A stretch of 64,000 nt of DNA from NCBI GenBank assembly GCA_024637115.1, contig JAGXFU010000011.1, positions 62,001 through 126,000 on the forward strand, written 5' to 3'. Origin of the DNA: Actinomycetes bacterium (lineage in GTDB: Bacteria; Actinomycetota; Coriobacteriia; Anaerosomatales; JAGXFU01). Positions 10,593 to 44,618 of this stretch are shown here, piece after piece. How positions within the stretch are numbered: position 1 is the first letter of the stretch; each line of letters opens with the position of its first letter. A model generated the notes under the pieces. It was not told the DNA's origin, made no database searches, and worked only from the letters and a program-made list of their open reading frames with translations. A program made the translations under genes and the position numbers.

Positions 10593-11579
10593 TCACAGTG
10601 CCTGCATCAATGCATCGATCTGAGTTGTCGTGCCGAGCACAACGAGACGATCGTGCTCCTCAAGAACAGTATTTGAGGAGGGATTGGTGTTGACCGCACC
10701 GCCATGCTGTTGAATAGCCAGGATATAGGCGCCGGTAGATTCCCGCACCTGTGCCTCCTTTATGGTTCTTCCGACAAAGCTTGAATCGGGCGGCAATTCG
10801 ACTTCCTGCAGTCGAAACTCCACGCTGTCACCGTGTGTCACGAGGTCAAGGAAGTCCGAGACAACCGGCTGCATCAGCATGGCAGCCATGCGTCGACCTC
10901 CAATGACATTTGGCGTCAGCACCCTGTCAGCGCCGGCGCGACGCAGCTTTGCCTCGCTCACCTCGTGAGATGCTCGGGCAACAATGAAGAGATCGGAATT
11001 CAGCGAACGGGCGGAGAAGGTGACGAATAGATTGTCCGCGTCGGTATCCAGCGCCGTCACGAGCCCTCGAGCACGGTCTATCCCTGCTTCCAGGAGCGTC
11101 TCCTCATCGGTCGCGTCGGCGTCAAGCACGAGCCATCCTTCATCGCGAGCACGCTCGATCGAATCCGGGTCCGATTCGATGACAAGGAATGCAACGTTCT
11201 CCTCGGCAAGTGATCGAGCAACAACGGAGCCGACCCTGCCGATTCCCGCTACGATATGATGCCCGCTAAGTCTCTCGATATTTGTGCGCATGCGACGCCC
11301 TTCCCACAAGCCTTTCAGATGCCCCTCGACCACAAAATCGATGAAGGTGCCCAGTGCGAACAGCAGGACCCCGAATCCAAGGAGTATCAGCACCATGGTG
11401 AACGCTCGGCCGACATTGGTGAGTTCACCGACCTCAGAGTAGCCCACGGTACCTACTGTGATCACCGTCATGTAGAGAGCGTCAAATACGCTCCACCCCT
11501 CGATCAACACATACCCGAGGGTCCCGAACACAAGAACCGCCATCAACACAGTGAGGGCAAGAGCAAGGCGTCTCATCAT
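10593..11579 (-). CDS. Two-TM potassium channel with RCK domains
   Basis: Membrane potassium channel, 328 residues. Two transmembrane helices (about 5-27 and 58-82) flank a pore loop with filter-like ITVGTVGYSE. They are followed by an RCK_N/TrkA-N Rossmann domain (about 105-225, glycine motif AGIGRVGSVVARSL, acidic VIESDPDS) and an RCK_C/TrkA-C domain (about 240-328). This is the MthK-like arrangement in one chain. Its ATG overlaps the hpt stop (ATGA), so it is coupled to purine salvage. RCK_C domains of some potassium channels bind nucleotides such as c-di-AMP; whether this one does is not visible. Gating ligands remain unknown. Confidence 0.9.
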   Translation of the reverse strand: MMRRLALALTVLMAVLVFGTLGYVLIEGWSVFDALYMTVITVGTVGYSEVGELTNVGRAFTMVLILLGFGVLLFALGTFIDFVVEGHLKGLWEGRRMRTNIERLSGHHIVAGIGRVGSVVARSLAEENVAFLVIESDPDSIERARDEGWLVLDADATDEETLLEAGIDRARGLVTALDTDADNLFVTFSARSLNSDLFIVARASHEVSEAKLRRAGADRVLTPNVIGGRRMAAMLMQPVVSDFLDLVTHGDSVEFRLQEVELPPDSSFVGRTIKEAQVRESTGAYILAIQQHGGAVNTNPSSNTVLEEHDRLVVLGTTTQIDALMQAL

Positions 11580-12127
11580 AGCCCCGTTACCTCACGAGAC
11601 ATCTCGGCGATGTAGCCAAGATTTCGAAAACGTCCAGCGTGGTCGAGGCCATATCCCACGACATATCGATCAGGTATTGAGAAGCCGCGATACGTGATAG
11701 GAAGGTCAACGATCCGCCGTATGTCTTTGTCGAACATCGTGCACACTTCCAAGGTGGCCGGCTGACGCGCCCGCAAATTGTTCAGAATGTAGTTGAGGGT
11801 AAGACCCGTGTCGATGATGTCCTCAACAACTATCACATTCGCTCCAGCAATCGCATCATCAAGATCCTTCACCACACGCACTCGCCCCGGAGCATCGCCC
11901 GCGTACGAACTCACCGCGAGGAAATCGACCTGGAGCGGAAGGTCGATTGCACGACACAGATCAGCAAGGAAGAACACTCCACCCCGCAATACGGTGACCA
12001 GCCTGAGGTCGGATGCACGATGGTCGACTGCGATCGCCGCTCCCAGTTCACCAACCCGGCGCTGAATGTCATCCTCTGTGACGACGAGGCGTGAGAACAG
12101 CTCACTTGGGGCAAAAGGCGTGGCCAT
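11576..12127 (-). CDS. hpt: Hypoxanthine phosphoribosyltransferase
   Basis: 183-residue purine phosphoribosyltransferase forming IMP/GMP from hypoxanthine/guanine and PRPP. The PRPP motif VIVVEDIIDTGLTLNYI lies near residues 95-111, the VLRGGVFFLADL loop near 44-56, and the C-terminal purine-contacting YVVGYGLDHAGRFRNLGYI is intact. The start ATG 12127 shares its A with the TGA of the preceding gene (TGATG), and the stop overlaps the channel gene, so it sits in a tightly coupled run. In many bacteria hpt neighbours tilS and ftsH; here it does not. Confidence 0.95.
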   Translation of the reverse strand: MATPFAPSELFSRLVVTEDDIQRRVGELGAAIAVDHRASDLRLVTVLRGGVFFLADLCRAIDLPLQVDFLAVSSYAGDAPGRVRVVKDLDDAIAGANVIVVEDIIDTGLTLNYILNNLRARQPATLEVCTMFDKDIRRIVDLPITYRGFSIPDRYVVGYGLDHAGRFRNLGYIAEMSREVTGL

Positions 12128-12552
12128 CAGTCTGATCCGTCCTCACCACTACCGGCGCGCAACCCTCCGCCATCGGCACGATCCTGTTCCTCGACCGGCA
12201 GATCATACTTGAGAAGAAGGTTCCGAAAATCCTTCTGATAGAAGATCTTGATCTGCACCTCCGGATAGAGTTCTTTGAGGCGGCGCACTTTGCGGTTCTT
12301 CTTGGTAACAAGCTTCTGACTCATGGTAGTAAGTTCGATATAGAGATCCATGTCCGGCAGATAAAAGTCCGGAGAGAACGAGGCGATGATCCTACCCTCA
12401 CCATCCCACTCGATCGGAAAGGTCGTCGGCTCGTACTCCCACCGGATGTGGTAGAAGTCGAGAATATCAGCAGCCACTCGCTCGCTCGGATGCGCGAACT
12501 CGATCTCATCGGCATGACGCTTCAGCGAGGAACTGTCTAACGTGTCGGCCAT
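12127..12552 (-). CDS. PD-(D/E)XK nuclease-like protein of unknown role
   Basis: 141 residues, not a named family I recognise with certainty. What is visible resembles a minimal restriction-endonuclease-like fold: an early Glu helix (SERVAADIL, E24), then a beta-hairpin with P61-D62 (SPDFYLPD), E73-x-T75 (YIELT), and a basic helix TKKNRKVRRLKELYP ending in a strand VQIKIFY. This matches the order E...PD...ExK with Thr in place of Lys. The tail is low-complexity (Asp/Gly-rich). ATG 12552 is 5 nt after the MerR stop and its own stop overlaps hpt. It may be a nuclease, a pseudo-nuclease, or a nucleic-acid-binding protein. Confidence 0.6.
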   Translation of the reverse strand: MADTLDSSSLKRHADEIEFAHPSERVAADILDFYHIRWEYEPTTFPIEWDGEGRIIASFSPDFYLPDMDLYIELTTMSQKLVTKKNRKVRRLKELYPEVQIKIFYQKDFRNLLLKYDLPVEEQDRADGGGLRAGSGEDGSD

Positions 12553-12557
12553 CTTCC

Positions 12558-13268
12558 CTACACGACATCTTCGAAGACACGCGCCAGCGATCTTCTCAGC
12601 AGAAGGGCCGTCAACTCGCGGGTCTGATCGCTCAGCTCGCCGAGGGTCTCGGCGAGTTTCAGACGGGTCTCGGGAGTTCGATGTCTAAATGTGGGCATGA
12701 GAATCTGAGAGAAGAAGGTGGATTCTCGCTCCGCGAACGTCTCATACATCCTCAGGTGACGCGGCTCGACTCCAAAACGGCGCATCTCCCAACAGACATG
12801 TGCTATCTGGATGTCAGACGCCGTTATCTCGCGCCCACGCTCCCCATCCACAAGTCGAACGAGATTGAATTCTTCGAGTTCCTTGATGAAGGTGGCAGGA
12901 AGGCCGAGAGACGCAGGGATGTCATCGATCCGAACCGTCTCACCAGCGCCACCGTCGACGGCTGCGGAGGGTAGCGCCGTCTTCGCTCCTTTGAGTTCAG
13001 AAGGGATCTTTCCCTTGTCGTAGTCAGCAAGCCTCTCGCGAATCACAGCCAGAGGCAAGAAGTGCTCCTTCTGAAGACGCAAGATATGCTCGATACGAGT
13101 AACGTCATCGGCGCGGAACTTCCGGTAGCCCCCGGCCGTCCGTTCAGGGGAAACCAGACCCTCTTCCTCAAGAAAGCGAACCTTGGATATTGAGAGGTCG
13201 GGAAAGCGATCAGCGAGCGCGTCGACCACTTCTCCGATCGTCATGTAGTCACGCGGCAACCCACTCAC
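12558..13268 (-). CDS. MerR-family regulator, FtsR-like
   Basis: 236-residue MerR regulator. The N-terminal winged helix begins at MTIGEVVDAL, with the MerR signature SKVRFLEEEGLVSPERTAGGYRKF (about residues 26-49) followed by DVTRIEHILRLQ. A second winged-helix-like segment near residues 100-170 (ITASDIQIAHVCWEMRRFGVEPRHLRMYETFAERE) is characteristic of the Rv1828/FtsR group, which activates ftsZ in Corynebacterium. The GTG start at 13268 overlaps the stop of the FHA gene (GTGA). The FHA-MerR pair matches garA-Rv1828 in Mycobacterium. Its targets here are unknown. Confidence 0.82.
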   Translation of the reverse strand: MSGLPRDYMTIGEVVDALADRFPDLSISKVRFLEEEGLVSPERTAGGYRKFRADDVTRIEHILRLQKEHFLPLAVIRERLADYDKGKIPSELKGAKTALPSAAVDGGAGETVRIDDIPASLGLPATFIKELEEFNLVRLVDGERGREITASDIQIAHVCWEMRRFGVEPRHLRMYETFAERESTFFSQILMPTFRHRTPETRLKLAETLGELSDQTRELTALLLRRSLARVFEDVV

Positions 13269-13714
13269 GCACCCTTCGGACCGGCAAGAAACACCATCTG
13301 GAACATGCCGATCTGAAGTGAGTCGCCACTTGAGAGGTCCGCTTTGTCGACGCAGACTCCGTTGACGTACGTGCCGTTGAGCGATCCGGAGTCCAATACG
13401 GTCACGTGGTCGCCAACCCGTCCGACCACTGCATGTCTACGTGACACCGTGACGTCATTGAGGAAGACGTCCGAGGAGGGATCACGACCGATGGACATGT
13501 CGCCCTCGTCGATATAGAAGCGCTCGCCCATCTCGGCGCCCTTCGATACCACAAGGACAGGACCCTCGGTGTCTCCAAACTCGGCTATCGCTTCTGCGGC
13601 CTCGGCACTCACGGGCTGAAACGACTGAGTCGTTCCCGCTAGTTTCAATCCGCACTCCGGACAAGCGTCGGCGTTCTGCTCGACCGGAGTTCCGCATGAT
13701 GGACACGCGTTCAT
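13265..13714 (-). CDS. Zinc-ribbon/FHA-domain protein, GarA-like
   Basis: 149 residues. The N-terminus is a zinc ribbon with two Cys pairs (CPSCG at 4-8 and CPECG at 18-22). A linker with a Thr-Thr pair (T28-T29) in GTTQSF follows, then a C-terminal FHA domain (about 60-145) with the phosphothreonine-binding landmarks MSIGRDPSSDV, VSRRHAVV and LNGTYVNG. FHA proteins bind phosphorylated partners of Ser/Thr kinases. In mycobacteria the equivalent locus encodes GarA, which controls 2-oxoglutarate use through phosphorylation of a Thr in an ETTS motif. The zinc ribbon is not part of GarA. No kinase gene is in this window. Confidence 0.85.
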   Translation of the reverse strand: MNACPSCGTPVEQNADACPECGLKLAGTTQSFQPVSAEAAEAIAEFGDTEGPVLVVSKGAEMGERFYIDEGDMSIGRDPSSDVFLNDVTVSRRHAVVGRVGDHVTVLDSGSLNGTYVNGVCVDKADLSSGDSLQIGMFQMVFLAGPKGA

Positions 13715-13745
13715 AGAAGCTCCCTAGTTTCGCCGAAGCGAGAGG

Positions 13746-14006
13746 TTAATCAGAGAAACCAAATTCATGCTTCTGGAATGAGTGGGAAATCTGCTCTTCG
13801 AGAGCACTGATGACTTCCGGACTCTCCAGAACATGATCCAGACGCTCGGCACTCAAGCGATTCTTCACGTACGGGTCAGCGAGAGCCTCAGAGAGCTTTC
13901 GCCCATTGTGCACCTCACGAATGACGTACTCGACGACACGTTCTTCGATCGCGTCGGTGGCAAGATCATCGAGAAACTCCTGCAACTTGTCACTAATGGA
14001 CGCCAC
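13746..14006 (-). CDS. Conserved small protein of unknown function
   Basis: 86 residues, soluble, predicted largely helical, without Cys or membrane segments. It contains VVEYVIREVHNGRKLSEALADPYVKNR, which looks like a short helical bundle. GTG 14006 has a strong AAGGAGG 7-8 nt upstream. It lies 38 nt after the RsiG-like gene and 31 nt before the FHA gene, all on one strand, so it is probably co-transcribed with them. I do not recognise the family; a link to the RsiG-like or FHA protein is only positional. Confidence 0.7.
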   Translation of the reverse strand: MASISDKLQEFLDDLATDAIEERVVEYVIREVHNGRKLSEALADPYVKNRLSAERLDHVLESPEVISALEEQISHSFQKHEFGFSD

Positions 14007-34512: not shown

Positions 34513-34721
34513 GTCCCACCTTCTGCGCATTGCTCGAATGGGTTTGTCGCTACCGCAGGAACATGCCCTGGTATCTCCGAGTCTATCCCTTCTCTCTGGC
34601 ATCGGCCAAATGATCGCATCAGTCTCTTTCGGACACCTGGCCGCGCCGATGGACTTGCCAACGAATGGGCATGATTCCTATGAGACTCTCAGCGCCTATT
34701 CCCACAATTGAAGGAGACGCA

Positions 34722-35840
34722 ATGCTACACGTCGATATTCCGACTCGCGCCGACATCGAACGACTGGCGGCAATCCGCTCAGACGCCTGTCTCTCGATCT
34801 ACCTGCCAACGAGCGCCGTCACCACCGAAACCGAGGGTGATCGTATCCTGCTCAAGAACCTCGCCCGTACAGGCGCCGAGGATTTGCGAGCGCACGGCGT
34901 GGCAAAGAAGACGGTCGACGCCATTGAGGAATCGCTCGACGACCTCGTTGACGACAGCGCGTTTTGGAACTACCAGGCCAACAGCCTCGCGGTACTCGCC
35001 ACAGAGGATGCGGTGCTCACCTTCCGGCTGCCTACAAAACTCGAACCCGCAGTCGAAGCAGCCGACCGTTTCCTCATGAAGCCGCTGCTTCGCGCCGCCA
35101 CCATGCCGCAATCTGCGTTCGTTCTCGCGCTCGCGCAGGGGTCCGTTCGTTTGGTCGAGGTCATGGCCGATCTGCCTGCGTCCACGCTTGAGGTAGACGA
35201 GCTTCCCGACGACATCGCCAGTGCGATCGGCGTGCCGTCCATCGCCGGGCGCTCCCCCAGTGGGCGCATCCAGGGATCGGAAGGTCAGAAGGTCCGCATG
35301 CGCCAGTACGCTCGCGCGATCGACGCCGCTGTGCGCGACACGCTCGCCGGTCGCGAGACGCCCCTGATCCTCGCAGCAACCGAGCCACTCGACTCCATCT
35401 ACCGTTCCGTGAACACATATCCCTTCCTCGCAGAGGAAGGCATCGCCGGTAGCCCGGAACAGACCAGTGACTCCGCTCTTGCCGCCGCGTCGAGACCCAT
35501 CCTCGACCGCCTCTATGCGGCGTCGCTCAAAGAGTTCGCCGAGGAGTTCGAAGAGGGCGCAGCGCAAGCCCGCACCACGACCGACATCGTAAAGACGGCA
35601 CGCGCCGCGACATACGGCGCGATCTCCGTCCTGCTAGTCGACATCAACGAGGCCGTACCCGGAGTAATCAACAAGAACGGAGTGGTCACGCTCCAAGAGG
35701 AGAATACGCCCGGGAGCTACGACGTCATCGACGAGATCGCATGCCGCGCGCTCGCTACGGGGGCACGTGTCATGGGAGTTCGGCGCAGTGATATCCCCGG
35801 GGACGGCAATCTCGCAGCGATCTTGCGCTACCCGCTCTAG
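34722..35840 (+). CDS. Bacterial archaeo-eukaryotic release factor-like (baeRF) protein
   Basis: 372 residues from ATG 34722 (AAGGAG 6-7 nt upstream). The N-terminal segment ACLSIYLPTSAVTTETEGDRILLKNL matches the baeRF family, distant relatives of eRF1/Pelota and of the Vms1/ANKZF1 peptidyl-tRNA hydrolases. The middle domain (LAQGSVRLVEV, LILAATEPLDSIY) and the C-terminal GAISVLLVDINEAVPG, plus TGARVMGVRRSDIPGDGNLAAILRYPL, resemble the eRF1 domain 3 fold. A role on stalled ribosomes or nascent chains is suspected from the family; no activity has been shown for most members. It ends at a strong terminator. It stands alone, divergent from the HD-GYP gene. Confidence 0.75.
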   Translation: MLHVDIPTRADIERLAAIRSDACLSIYLPTSAVTTETEGDRILLKNLARTGAEDLRAHGVAKKTVDAIEESLDDLVDDSAFWNYQANSLAVLATEDAVLTFRLPTKLEPAVEAADRFLMKPLLRAATMPQSAFVLALAQGSVRLVEVMADLPASTLEVDELPDDIASAIGVPSIAGRSPSGRIQGSEGQKVRMRQYARAIDAAVRDTLAGRETPLILAATEPLDSIYRSVNTYPFLAEEGIAGSPEQTSDSALAAASRPILDRLYAASLKEFAEEFEEGAAQARTTTDIVKTARAATYGAISVLLVDINEAVPGVINKNGVVTLQEENTPGSYDVIDEIACRALATGARVMGVRRSDIPGDGNLAAILRYPL

Positions 35841-39811: not shown

Positions 39812-40135
39812 CTAGTCTTCGACTTGCGCGTCCGGCGCGCCTGTCTTCACGGCTTCGATACCGGCGTCGCGCGCAGCTTCTGTCTCGAAGTAGTCGCTTC
39901 CGCCGATCGTCTGTCCGTTGGCTGCATCAAGTGCAAATCGGAACTGCCCGTCGGGCGTTGTTGTTCGCCGGTAGCGGCTCTCATCGGAAGCGTTCTTCTT
40001 CACTGATTCGATGCCGTTCATGCACGCGGCCATCGTTGTATACGCCTCGCTGGTGAGAATCACCTCGGCGCCCAGCTTCAGATCGAACATGAACTGCCCG
40101 TCCGGTCGTGTCTCGATATTGAAGTACCCTGCCAT
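39812..40135 (-). CDS. Two-repeat DUF1508 (YegP-like) protein
   Basis: 107 residues from ATG 40135, preceded by GGAGG 5 nt upstream. Two DUF1508 repeats of about 50 residues start AGYFNIETRPDGQFMFDL and RYRRTTTPDGQFRFAL, each ending in an alpha helix with GIESVKKNA / GIEAVKTGA. E. coli YegP has the same layout. The function is unknown; it is often found with stress genes. It is the first of several small proteins at 40-44 kb. Confidence 0.9.
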   Translation of the reverse strand: MAGYFNIETRPDGQFMFDLKLGAEVILTSEAYTTMAACMNGIESVKKNASDESRYRRTTTPDGQFRFALDAANGQTIGGSDYFETEAARDAGIEAVKTGAPDAQVED

Positions 40136-40316
40136 CATGTCCTCCTTCAGAGATGCGTTACCTGGCCGCCGTCCAAGGGCGAACAATCCGGCTCCTCTAA
40201 TAGAGCTCCTACCCAAGTACGGTCTTTGCATTGAGTTGGGGACTCGGTCGGTCGTCGCGCGTGAGCCGCGCGCTCGAGATATCGACCCTCCACGAACCCC
40301 GGCTGCGTCAAACGAA

Positions 40317-40401: not shown

Positions 40402-40809
40402 CTACTGCTGAGCGACGCTGTCATCCTCTGACTCGACGCGCTCGACGGTCTGAGATTGCGAACGCGGACTGACCGCACGAATCAGCGCAGTCAGACCCCA
40501 TGCAACCAGGGCATAAACGGCGATGGCAACAAGAGCGCTCCATTCAAATACGGCACCATCGACCTTCTGTGTATTGAAGATCGATGCGAACGGCGCCATG
40601 AACACGTCAGACACGCCGTAGACCAATTTCACAAACCCTGCTTGGGCGTTGGCGCCAAACAGCATAAGAGCGAAGCGAATTGCAATGAACACCTCAATGA
40701 CGCCGAAAACAAACATGATCACACGTGACATGACGACTTCCATCGGTGCACGCACTTCTGTGTGCACTTGACTACGACGATCAGTAGACGATGCCCTTGC
40801 ATTAGCCAT
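40402..40809 (-). CDS. YggT-family membrane protein
   Basis: 135 residues from ATG 40809 (AGGAG about 10 nt upstream). A polar N-terminus (about 1-25) is followed by a YggT domain with three to four helices; LVYGVSDVFMAPFASIF is the characteristic loop. YggT proteins occur near division genes, and their function is unresolved. The C-terminus is polar (SEDDSVAQQ). An inverted repeat and terminator A follow. Confidence 0.87.
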   Translation of the reverse strand: MANARASSTDRRSQVHTEVRAPMEVVMSRVIMFVFGVIEVFIAIRFALMLFGANAQAGFVKLVYGVSDVFMAPFASIFNTQKVDGAVFEWSALVAIAVYALVAWGLTALIRAVSPRSQSQTVERVESEDDSVAQQ

Positions 40810-40890
40810 TTCTTGACTCTCCTCTATCTGCCAGGTGGCTCGCATCCCGGACGCTCCAATGTGGCACGTCGATGCCGGGTCCCCGATCGT

Positions 40891-41247: not shown

Positions 41248-42357
41248 ATGGATAAATCCAAATCGCATTCCTCTCACGACCCACGTACGGAATCGACCGA
41301 CGCAGGTTCCGCTGAAGTCTGTCCGCCAACGCCTGCGGTCACTGCCGCGGTGCCTCCTTCGCTCGCGGAGCAGCGGCGCACCAGGAGCAAGCAGGCAGAT
41401 GCCGAGGCATCGTGGGAGCCCGCGGATGCGACATGGACGGATGCCGCTGTCGAGGAGGAAGGCGAGGAGCTGTTCCGCTCCATCTTCGAGCACTCGGCGG
41501 TAGGCATCGCGCTGATAGACCTGGAGGGGCGCATATCCACGTGCAACCCCATGCTGGCGGAAATGCTCGGCAGGACGGTCGACGAACTTCCCGGCCTGGC
41601 GTTCACCGACTTCTCCTATCCCGAAGACGCCACGCTCGACCTGCAGCACTTCGAAGCACTCGTCGGCGGAGGGAGCCACCACTACACGATCGAGAAGCGA
41701 TACATCCGCGGTGACGGGTCGATCCTTTGGGGGAAAATGACGGCGTCACTGATCTCGGGTGACGACGAACTTCCACGGTTCGTCATCGGCATCATCGAGG
41801 ACGTTTCGGAGCGTCACAACGCCGAGGAGGCAGTCCGGCAACGCGACCTCGGCATTCGCGATGCGTACACGCAAGTCGTCGCCGCGGTGACGGGGGGCAA
41901 GCTCGTACTAGTTGGAATGGATGAGATCGAGACGAACTTGGGGGACGAGGTGTGGAACGCCGGCGAGATCAGGTCCGCGAAGAGCGTCGCAAGGGCTCGC
42001 CACCGGCTGGGCGACATCCTGGCAGAGCGATTCGGCGACTTCCACAGCGCGGACGAGCTCGTGCTCGCTGCCGGCGAAGCAATGACCAACGCTTGGAACC
42101 ACGGAGGCGGGGCGCGTCTGCGGCTCCTCAAGAAGGATGGCCTGCTCCAAGCCGAAGTGGAAGACGACGGTCCGGGAATCGACTTTGCGAACCTTCCGAG
42201 AGCGACGCTGGTCCCCGGCTACTCCTCCACCACGTCACTCGGTATGGGTTTCACCATCATGCTCGCTGTGTGCGACCGCGTGCTGCTCGCCACCGCGTCG
42301 TCGGGTACCCGCCTCGTCCTCGAAGCACAGCGTGGCGAGAAACGAGACAGGCAGTAG
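41248..42357 (+). CDS. PAS-domain protein with RsbW-like ATPase domain
   Basis: 369 residues, soluble. A disordered polar N-terminus (about 1-70) is followed by a PAS domain (about 73-190; FRSIFEHSAVGIALIDLEGRISTCNPMLAEMLG). A short linker then leads to a GHKL ATPase domain (about 235-360) with N-box AGEAMTNAWNHGGG, G1 DDGPGID and G2 TSLGMGFTIM. There is no phosphoacceptor His domain. The ATPase resembles the RsbW/SpoIIAB serine-kinase group. It could be a stress-sigma regulator or an anti-sigma kinase; no cognate anti-anti-sigma gene is adjacent. Unlike most neighbours it is on the plus strand. Confidence 0.8.
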   Translation: MDKSKSHSSHDPRTESTDAGSAEVCPPTPAVTAAVPPSLAEQRRTRSKQADAEASWEPADATWTDAAVEEEGEELFRSIFEHSAVGIALIDLEGRISTCNPMLAEMLGRTVDELPGLAFTDFSYPEDATLDLQHFEALVGGGSHHYTIEKRYIRGDGSILWGKMTASLISGDDELPRFVIGIIEDVSERHNAEEAVRQRDLGIRDAYTQVVAAVTGGKLVLVGMDEIETNLGDEVWNAGEIRSAKSVARARHRLGDILAERFGDFHSADELVLAAGEAMTNAWNHGGGARLRLLKKDGLLQAEVEDDGPGIDFANLPRATLVPGYSSTTSLGMGFTIMLAVCDRVLLATASSGTRLVLEAQRGEKRDRQ

Positions 42358-42392
42358 GTCAGCAAGAAGCGAGGGGCTGTCCGCCGGAATGC

Positions 42393-42420
42393 AAAAACCC
42401 GCTCTCCGGCAAGAGGCGGG
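42393..42420 (-). terminator. Rho-independent terminator on the minus strand
   Basis: Minus strand: CCCGCCTCT-TGCCGG-AGAGCGGG (one bulged C) followed by TTTTT. It lies 107 nt downstream of the 11-residue-repeat protein gene. Confidence 0.75.
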
Positions 42421-42431
42421 CTCTCGAAAGA

Positions 42432-42526: not shown

Positions 42527-42949
42527 TCAGGCCTTCAGCTTCTCGTCTCCGCCCCGCCCGTCCAGGATCCTCATCCTTGCTTCTAGCAGTATTGCCGCCG
42601 CTTCCCTTTGTGACGTCAGCAGAACGTCTGCGGCGGCACGCTCTACCTCTCTCAAGGCGTCTGCGGCGGCCCTACGCACATCTCGCAGAGCATCCGCTGC
42701 AACCTCGGCGCGCACGAGCCGTTCTGCCTCAGGGAGGTCTGGTAGACCCCGCCTCACGTTTTCCTCCGCTGCGAGCAAGACTTCCTCCGCCGTCCGCTGG
42801 GCGGCTAGCAGGACTCTCTCGGCCTTCTGCCGCGCCGCCAGCAGGACTTCCTCTGGCTTCTGCAGGCCACCCTGCAAAACCGCCTCGGCCTTCTCTTGCG
42901 CCGTTAGCAGGATCTCTGCCTCTTCGCCTGGCGTGACTCTCTTGCTCAT
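42527..42949 (-). CDS. 11-residue-repeat amphipathic helical protein
   Basis: 140 residues from ATG 42949 (GAGGGG 6 nt upstream). Nearly the whole chain is in 11-residue repeats: five at residues 9-63 with consensus (K/T)-x-E-x-V-L-L-A-A-x-x, a 19-residue linker, then four at 83-126 with consensus A-A-A-D-x-L-x-x-x-x-R. A charged tail (DGRGGDEKLKA) follows. There are no Cys, Trp or transmembrane segments. Hendecad repeats form extended amphipathic helices or right-handed coiled coils, as in group 3 LEA proteins and lipid-surface proteins. The DNA shows matching 33-nt repeats. I know of no named family; the role is unknown. Confidence 0.75.
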   Translation of the reverse strand: MSKRVTPGEEAEILLTAQEKAEAVLQGGLQKPEEVLLAARQKAERVLLAAQRTAEEVLLAAEENVRRGLPDLPEAERLVRAEVAADALRDVRRAAADALREVERAAADVLLTSQREAAAILLEARMRILDGRGGDEKLKA

Positions 42950-43107
42950 GGATGCCCCTCGTTGCCGTCTACCGCACGTCTGACCGTCGAAATACATCGC
43001 AAGGACATGCGCCCAATTCGACCCGACCTGGGCCTCTACGGGCGCATTTCGACTCGCTCCATCCTACTCGCGTTGCCCGAGTATGACGAAGGCGACCCCG
43101 AAAACGA

Positions 43108-43255: not shown

Positions 43256-43345
43256 CTACCGTCCTCTTCTAGACCAAAAATAGCCGCCGCCCCCGCCAAA
43301 CAGAAGGATCAACACTATGATGATTATGAGTGTCGTACTGTCCAT
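43256..43345 (-). CDS. DUF3309-like membrane microprotein
   Basis: 29 residues: MDSTT, a hydrophobic helix LIIIIVLILLF, a GGGGG turn, and an aromatic/basic end YFWSRRGR. ATG 43345 has a perfect GGAGG 8 nt upstream. The pattern of a short helix, oligo-Gly and an aromatic/Arg tail resembles DUF3309-type microproteins. It is only 90 nt long and easily missed. Function unknown. Confidence 0.65.
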   Translation of the reverse strand: MDSTTLIIIIVLILLFGGGGGYFWSRRGR

Positions 43346-43602: not shown

Positions 43603-43875
43603 CTAGCCTTCTGACCGGTCCTTCACTTCATCGGCCTTATCGGCCACCTTGTCACTCAGATCCCCGGCCTTGTTGCTCGCCCTGTCGCGCGCGTCATCGA
43701 GCTTGTCCTTAAGGTCGTCCTTCACGGCCTCGACTGCCTGCTTCGTTTTCGCGGATGCCTGATCGAACTTGCCCTCCGCTTCGAGCTTGTCGTTATCGGT
43801 CTTGTCTCCGACCCACTCCTTTACCTTCCCTGCTGCTTCATCGGTTGAATGCTTGATTTTGTCGTCGAATCCCAT
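43603..43875 (-). CDS. CsbD-like stress protein with LEA-like tail
   Basis: 90 residues from ATG 43875 (GGAG 6 nt upstream). Residues 1 to about 57 match CsbD-like proteins (DDKIKHSTDEAAGKVKEWVG, LEAEGKFDQA). The C-terminal third is very rich in Lys/Asp/Ala (DKLDDARDRASNKAGDLSD), like a group 3 LEA protein. CsbD is a general-stress protein of unknown mechanism in Bacillus. The same strand carries the collagen-like gene upstream. Confidence 0.88.
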   Translation of the reverse strand: MGFDDKIKHSTDEAAGKVKEWVGDKTDNDKLEAEGKFDQASAKTKQAVEAVKDDLKDKLDDARDRASNKAGDLSDKVADKADEVKDRSEG

Positions 43876-44102: not shown

Positions 44103-44375
44103 TCAGGGCGTGGTCTCCGTCGAGCCCGGTGCCCCGGGCGCGCCCGCAGCGCCATCGGCACCAGGTGCCCCCGTCGATCCCGGCGTGCCGGGTGTTCCCG
44201 GAGTCCCTTGCACTGGCCCGGGCTGCATCATGTTGATGACCCGGGGCCCGCCCATGTAGCCGTTGAAGAAGAAGAACCCGAGGACGAGCAGGCCGATGAC
44301 GACTATCGCCACGACCGCGATAAGGGCGACGTTGTTTCCCGACTGATCTGTTTGTTCGCGCATGACGGTAGCCAT
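44103..44375 (-). CDS. Membrane-anchored collagen-like microprotein
   Basis: 90 residues from ATG 44375 (GAGG about 9 nt upstream). A short cytoplasmic N-terminus (1-15) precedes one transmembrane helix (about 17-40, ALIAVVAIVVIGLLVLGFFFF). The rest is an extracytoplasmic segment ending in Gly-x-Pro-type repeats (GTPGTPGTPGSTGAPGADG, then AAGAPGAPG). About nine Gly-X-Y triplets is short for a stable collagen helix. It may be a surface spike or a linker. Function unknown. Confidence 0.8.
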   Translation of the reverse strand: MATVMREQTDQSGNNVALIAVVAIVVIGLLVLGFFFFNGYMGGPRVINMMQPGPVQGTPGTPGTPGSTGAPGADGAAGAPGAPGSTETTP

Positions 44376-44618
44376 GTTCGTTGGTCCTCTCGCCATGCTG
44401 ACGGTCCGATGCTGCGCACCGGGTCCGTATGGAGTAGTTCCCCGCCACGCAACGCGGGGAAACCTGCGCGACGTTCGTGGAAGCCTCGGGACAGGCGGAA
44501 GCCGTCGAAACGAGTACAGTCGATTGGCAAAACGCGACGTACAGACAAAGTTGGTCATCGGACTGCCAGGCGCGCCTCCATGCGCACAGCCAGTCACACT
44601 GACCGGAGGGAACTGCAC

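Follow-up and report, generated by a model that had tools for sequence, protein, structure and literature searches.

The gene considered here lies on the minus strand of a 64,000-nt stretch of genomic DNA, which we refer to as a whole as the window. The gene encodes a 140-residue protein that the preliminary description had singled out for its 11-residue repeats (hendecads). GC content by codon position is 0.76/0.47/0.68, calculated over the open frame at 42527-42997. A further in-frame ATG lies upstream at 42997 and is a possible start; a GAGGGG stretch precedes the ATG at 42949. Because of this stretch ahead of the ATG, and a strong hairpin and T's past the stop, the gene appears to resemble an ordinary transcription unit. 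A SigB-like promoter pattern matched once in the 64 kb, but at least one match also arose in 34 of 100 shuffles and the real one sits past the gene's stop, on the minus strand, so it was dropped. The features of the gene are as follows.

42527..42949, minus strand: coding sequence of the hendecad protein (P0001), an open frame with an ATG start, 140 aa, with homologous intact genes
42955..42960, minus strand: possible ribosome-binding site, GAGGGG ahead of the ATG, read from the sequence
42752..42916, minus strand: N-terminal block of five hendecads, residues 12-66 (predicted helix 7-66), from repeat analysis and model
42767..42863, no strand given: 33-nt DNA repeat, period 33, 2.9 copies, 73% matches (Tandem Repeats Finder)
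42707..42751, minus strand: linker, residues 67-81, of variable length among relatives (alignment of eight sequences, A2; helix break at 67-73 in the model)
42575..42706, minus strand: C-terminal block of four hendecads, residues 82-125 (in predicted helix 74-132), from repeat analysis and model
42554..42640, minus strand: best conserved segment, residues 104-132 (mean pairwise identity 58.5% among the eight sequences of A2)
42392..42426, minus strand: hairpin resembling an intrinsic terminator, with T's after it, ~100 nt past the stop (MFE -21.2 kcal/mol, z -3.6)

As originally proposed, the protein is built almost wholly of 11-residue units, five plus four, with a short linker between the blocks that in the window protein includes GLPDLPEAER. 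Self-identity at a lag of 11 residues was 0.318 (32%), a value reached in none of 20,000 composition shuffles and, when any lag from 3 to 40 was allowed, in none of 5,000. In one common register, position e was Leu in all nine units, d was V, I, or A in all nine, and a was Ala in seven; position f was also Leu in six of the nine. The hydrophobic fraction reached 0.78 at a, 1.00 at d, 1.00 at e, and 0.78 at h. Because positions e, d, and a are nearly constant, the earlier wording that seven units are almost superimposable was fair. The matching 33-nt DNA repeats reported with them were recovered in the N-terminal block (42767-42863), but Tandem Repeats Finder detected none elsewhere. Among the eight family members described below, lag-11 identity exceeded all 2,000 shuffles in five, and the periodicity was weaker in G001 (reached by 1 of 2,000 shuffles), G002 (3 of 2,000), and one of two copies in G031 (G031b, 40 of 2,000).

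Structure prediction with AlphaFold2, run on a single chain with eight aligned sequences, gave helices at residues 7-66 and 74-132 (mean pLDDT 88.7, pTM 0.67). Since only a short break separates the two long helices, the model is most simply read as a helical hairpin. The window protein combines an 11-residue period with hydrophobic residues at a, d, e, and h, the pattern given for hendecad right-handed coiled coils in a review of ATPase stalks, which also describes A-ATPase stalk subunits as rich in Ala, Leu, Glu, and Arg (PMC6131620). A predicted folded hendecad hairpin is well supported by sequence and prediction together. The window protein is rich in A, L, V, E, and R, with a net charge of -4 (relatives -5 to -14). 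Computed values for the eight members ranged from -0.23 to -0.53 for GRAVY and from 0.004 to 0.131 for the fold index. Foldseek found no PDB match at E<=0.001, and VIA-align returned helical hairpins and bundles from many unrelated proteins, with Z between 8.5 and 9.8, a range that the tool warns may mean a common helical arrangement only. The structural matches, which included CheA P3, Vipp1, ABC-transporter helices, and phage and axoneme parts, were therefore rejected as signs of kinship, as none reached E<=0.001 and many unrelated chains tied.

Judged by sequence, the hendecad protein belongs to a narrow family in an uncultured actinobacterial order. We call this family undescribed because neither a database match above threshold nor a literature description was found. 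Eight intact stand-alone genes were identified in 7 of the 69 genomes of the order (G000, G001, G002, G014, G031 with two, G053, and G065), together with three partial genes (G009; G029, a short frame near a contig start; and G041, a fragment). Homologues with the repeat, whose absence the preliminary description had named as grounds for abandoning its proposal, therefore exist: leaving the window copy aside, there are seven intact genes in six other genomes. Relatives include HGW-Actinobacteria-7 and Actinomycetota bacterium GH1; the order is probably one within the Coriobacteriia, such as OPB41/Anaerosomatales. The window protein was 32-39% identical to the other seven intact members, and across the eight sequences mean pairwise identity was 27-35% in the remaining blocks as far as residue 103, falling to 13% in the tail (residues 133-140).

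The single protein as query matched 11 of 61 order genomes at E<=0.01, its own included and some by chance. A profile of seven sequences matched 12 of 69 order genomes at E<=1e-5, with 19 matches in total, all of which were inspected. Stand-alone genes or their remnants made up 11 of them, the other 8 were parts of five histidine kinases, and no further class of protein was present among the 19. Weak single-sequence hits (G040, G047, G048, G024, and G029:C3; E 4.5e-4 to 8e-3) were left out of the counts because the family profile did not recover them. An eight-sequence profile used at E<=1e-4 found matches in 12 of the 396 genomes that sampled the class, all from the same order and forming the same set. 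At E<=1e-12, 7 of the 396 class genomes matched, as did 1 of 396 genomes sampled across the phylum (the window's own); neither sample contained the family outside its order.

Wider searches added little to this distribution. The hendecad protein had no match in a plasmid search, none of 43 candidate stretches from an IMG/VR scan with the family profile was confirmed, and none of 591 candidates was confirmed in a GTDB contig scan with the single protein. The same scan with the profile confirmed two, which were the same genes as G001:C20 and G002:C252. Pfam, NCBIfam, PHROG, and PDB sequence searches gave no match above threshold; a resemblance to the Phd/YefM antitoxin (E 0.042, 14 bits against a cut-off of 29.8) was set aside as chance. 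Literature searches on hendecad coiled coils, hendecad repeats in bacteria, and signaling helices of histidine kinases returned nothing on the protein family or on hendecad-armed kinases. No papers were found that joined hendecad and histidine kinase, the 11-residue repeat, LEA, bacteria, and desiccation, or CsbD and DUF1508. Hendecad coiled coils are already known; it is the small family and the occurrence of the repeat as an N-terminal kinase array that look undescribed in the literature searched.

The nearby CsbD gene had been taken to suggest a desiccation, membrane, or granule-surface function, and a stress-gene neighborhood is supported by the following neighbors.

41248..42357, plus strand: convergent neighbor, PAS + HATPase_c_2 (RsbW-like) kinase, from domain matches
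43256..43345, minus strand: 29-aa single-TM protein, DUF3309-like (21.0 bits, cut-off 22.3), an unlisted open reading frame between the CsbD and hendecad genes
43603..43875, minus strand: CsbD-like protein (PF05532, 4.1e-14)
40402..40845, minus strand: YggT-like membrane protein (25.7 bits, cut-off 27)
39812..40231, minus strand: tandem DUF1508 protein, from domain match
34665..35840, plus strand: baeRF-family protein (archaeo-eukaryotic release-factor-like), 7 kb from the hendecad gene

At 44103-44376 on the minus strand, we also observed a small protein without a Pfam match that combines a single hydrophobic segment with a collagen-like Gly-Xaa-Yaa sequence at its C-terminal end, GTPGTPGTPGSTGAPGADGAAGAPGAPGS.

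Parts of this neighborhood recur in relatives. In G002, the hendecad gene has as its neighbor a DUF1508 gene 72% identical to the window one; the ABC-F/PgsA-like region lies upstream as in the window, baeRF is nearby, and the PAS kinase and a 78% identical CsbD gene lie together on another contig. The window baeRF and its G002 counterpart share 86-87% identity, much more than the 63-76% found for the syntenic PgsA-like and ABC-F genes. In G009, the gene directly next to a hendecad remnant, and on its strand, is YggT-like and 85% identical to that of the window; the PAS kinase and ABC-F lie only a few kilobases from there. A DUF772/DDE transposase gene lies beside this hendecad gene, which has no C-terminal half (L078:9762-11162 and 11383-11700), and suggests that the gene was disrupted by an insertion sequence. 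Orthologues of the PAS kinase in G032, G009, and G002 were 67-78% identical, and no hendecad remnant was found in the G032 stretch (L111) or on the 3.8 kb G002 PAS-kinase contig (L112). Close orthologues (67-100% identical) occurred in 4 of the 69 genomes, three of which hold a hendecad gene or remnant (hypergeometric 0.008 with remnants and 0.048 with intact genes only, kinship ignored). This count leaves out G003, G013, and G005, where the PAS-HATPase match was 39-47% identical over part of the length.

By contrast, six of the seven other intact-gene loci (G014, G053, the two in G031, G001, and G065) showed no tblastn match to the tested window neighbors apart from weak PAS-domain matches; several are short contigs or stretches. 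Searches of the window neighbors by tblastn against L041, L042, L043, L044, L046, L047, L079, and L080 gave no match except in L044 (G031), where PAS domains matched weakly at 29-33% identity. Close to each G031 copy is a frame from an unnamed protein family shared by the two loci (L043:5246-5593 and L044:5082-5270), with 65% identity across 51 aa; the longer frame has no Pfam match. The genes near the window copy and two relatives suggest a role in stress, and general-stress genes accompany the hendecad gene in three families within the order, though not throughout.

The family profile also picked out five cytosolic histidine kinases from 4 of the 69 order genomes; the match lay in the N-terminal half of each, an array of 9-27 hendecads.

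Loci L033, L037, L027, L034, and L029: hendecad histidine kinases (best family-profile match per kinase 1.5e-6 to 2.1e-13)

All five carry HisKA and HATPase_c, and no other Pfam input domain rose above cut-off in any of them, only sub-cutoff noise. Units at the N-terminus in G000 include GATVLLEAQDE, AARTLLASQSE, and VAELLRSHNVE, and position e was Leu or Met in all 97 units counted across the five kinases. The kinases and the stand-alone protein are alike in an AAxxLLxxQ-type unit but differ in that the former have longer arrays, a HisKA/HATPase_c output, and 33-residue super-repeats. The super-repeat is strong in four of the five arrays (lag-33 identity 0.36-0.53; 0.24 over the whole frame in G015) and is absent from the stand-alone proteins. 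On G000 contig C17, two hendecad kinases stand in tandem (L081:10976-12175 and 12267-13958, frames of 402 and 571 aa), and no response regulator was recognized by eye among the adjacent frames; the 571-aa kinase has a lag-33 identity of 0.53 and a lag-11 identity of 0.25. A predicted structure of the kinase (mean pLDDT 62, array mostly <60) was too weak to read.

How far the kinase arrays resemble the family can be gauged from their scores. Against the family profile, the five real arrays scored 31.0-81.4 bits, compared with <3 bits for every one of 5 reversed and 100 shuffled copies. However, 100 shuffles that preserved the register (20 per kinase) averaged 26-62 bits, with the real array topping the best of its 20 in four of five cases. 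Since these shuffles came near the real scores, the resemblance is mostly the shared hendecad consensus. The likeness is specific to that consensus and its direction but goes hardly beyond it, and may reflect convergence. When the array alone served as query, the 396 class genomes yielded these four again and no others, and neither plasmids nor phages gave a match. Six loci from an IMG/VR scan with the kinase alignment were not used because their matches began at residue 260 or beyond, within the kinase half or the stretch leading up to it. A known comparison is the S-helix, described in PMC1592074 as a heptad-based element of ~40 residues that lies between two domains, has polar residues of a dimer interface in its central heptad, and is associated with kinases. 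Both are helical coiled-coil elements associated with kinases, but by that description the S-helix differs from the present repeat, which is hendecad-based and N-terminal or stand-alone.

Several functions can be weighed against this evidence. The preliminary description compared the periodicity to LEA group 3. A protectant of this type, unfolded until drying makes it helical and able to shield proteins or membranes, would fit the 11-residue period, the stress-gene surroundings, and the CsbD neighbor, whose tail was also called LEA-like; that tail does match LEA_4 (E 0.0033), but with only 17.7 bits against a cut-off of 51.1. In the account of PMC8670023, LEA 11-mers form amphipathic helices on drying and an 11-mer alone raises the survival of E. 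coli, which also favors a protectant. The hendecad protein shares the 11-residue repeat and amphipathic helix with LEA group 3 and LEA_4, but it is too hydrophobic, is predicted to be folded, and has no profile match, with no LEA model found in any of the eight members at E<=1. LEA proteins are highly hydrophilic and disordered, and by computed GRAVY, fold index, and a confident helix model the eight members are not. An LEA motif has a GRAVY of -1.11 and the CsbD neighbor -1.29 with a negative fold index, compared with -0.26 and a positive index for the hendecad protein. The hydrophobic a/d/e/h core, with its invariant Leu at e, also speaks against a protectant, and the conserved C-terminal segment would not be expected of a generic shield. 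LEA membership is rejected on profile, composition, and predicted fold, and a LEA-like protective function seems quite unlikely. Amphipathic 11-mer helices could instead coat lipid or polymer surfaces, as phasins, apolipoproteins, and Vipp1/PspA do, and the DUF3309-like and YggT-like membrane proteins nearby would suit a membrane- or granule-surface protein. Vipp1 was among the VIA-align matches (8qbw, Z 9.2, 130 aligned, rmsd 5.4), but it tied with many unrelated hairpins, and the negative net charge would work against contact with anionic bacterial membranes. No phasin, apolipoprotein, or PspA model matched the window protein at E<=1, or appeared among the 13 families listed for the eight members, and we find a surface-coating role distinctly improbable. 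Least probable of all, and very doubtful on the evidence, is a spare part of a known coiled-coil machine, such as a relative of an ATPase peripheral stalk, FliH, or DivIVA. In its favor are low-scoring NCBIfam hits to V-type subunit E (E 0.00013, 21.5 bits), Wag31, AtpF, and FliH, and a V-ATPase-G-like frame in G048 that the single protein hit weakly (E 0.002). Like the hendecad protein, peripheral stalks (F-type b2, A/V-type EG) have an 11-residue period, hydrophobic a/d/e/h positions, and an Ala/Leu/Glu/Arg-rich composition. Yet the scores fall far below their cut-offs (241 for V-type E; 12 bits against 197 for F-type b; 13.3 against 260 for Wag31), Pfam DivIVA matched one of eight family members, at 0.088, and alignment A1 found no PDB sequence at E<=0.1. 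Unlike the stalks, the hendecad protein has two helices in one short chain and no membrane anchor, globular domain, or family match above cut-off; the signature globular or membrane parts of such machines are absent and no neighboring genes fit them.

The kinases raise a different possibility, that the protein is a detached input arm that assembles together with hendecad histidine kinases and controls how active or how clustered they are. Apart from the family itself, the profile found nothing but these kinase arrays, and similar motifs occur in both, AADVLLTSQREAAAILL in the protein and AARTLLASQSEVAELLR in the kinases, the latter a consensus-like reading of adjacent units. An intact stand-alone gene is present in two of the four kinase genomes (G000 and G065) compared with 7 of 69 overall (hypergeometric 0.048, kinship ignored). 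Still, of the seven genomes that carry the stand-alone gene intact, five had no hendecad kinase at the search threshold, so this pairing cannot be the general function. The two kinds of gene are not adjacent, and the super-repeat of most kinase arrays has no counterpart in the stand-alone proteins. We consider a detached arm unlikely. A bolder version, in which a lineage-specific hendecad module circulates between kinase arrays and hairpins and a free arm inserts by hetero-coiled-coil exchange to titrate the kinase, earns little confidence from us. If a free arm did act in this way, it would represent a sensor whose ligand is another coiled coil.

We tentatively favor, with somewhat less than even confidence, a folded hendecad hairpin that acts as a self-assembling coiled-coil adaptor or scaffold in stress signaling. 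The protein would be cytoplasmic and all-helical, with two predicted hendecad helices of ~60 residues joined by a short linker. Through its a/d/e/h face, the hairpin may self-associate as a right-handed coiled coil, and the conserved C-terminal helix could provide a docking site for a partner. From that helix, the kinase arrays, and the neighborhood, we infer a non-catalytic role, as adaptor or scaffold, within the lineage's stress-response circuitry. Because the repeat, in longer arrays, is the only recognizable N-terminal region of the kinases, it is probably used in the order as a module for signaling and oligomerization.

Our analysis delimits a small family of undescribed proteins from a lineage about which little is known. 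If the adaptor interpretation is right, 11-residue repeats in bacterial stress neighborhoods should not be taken for LEA proteins by default. The hendecad coiled coil would then serve both as the input region of a class of kinases and as a free-standing module, which would offer a way of controlling kinases that does not depend on a ligand.
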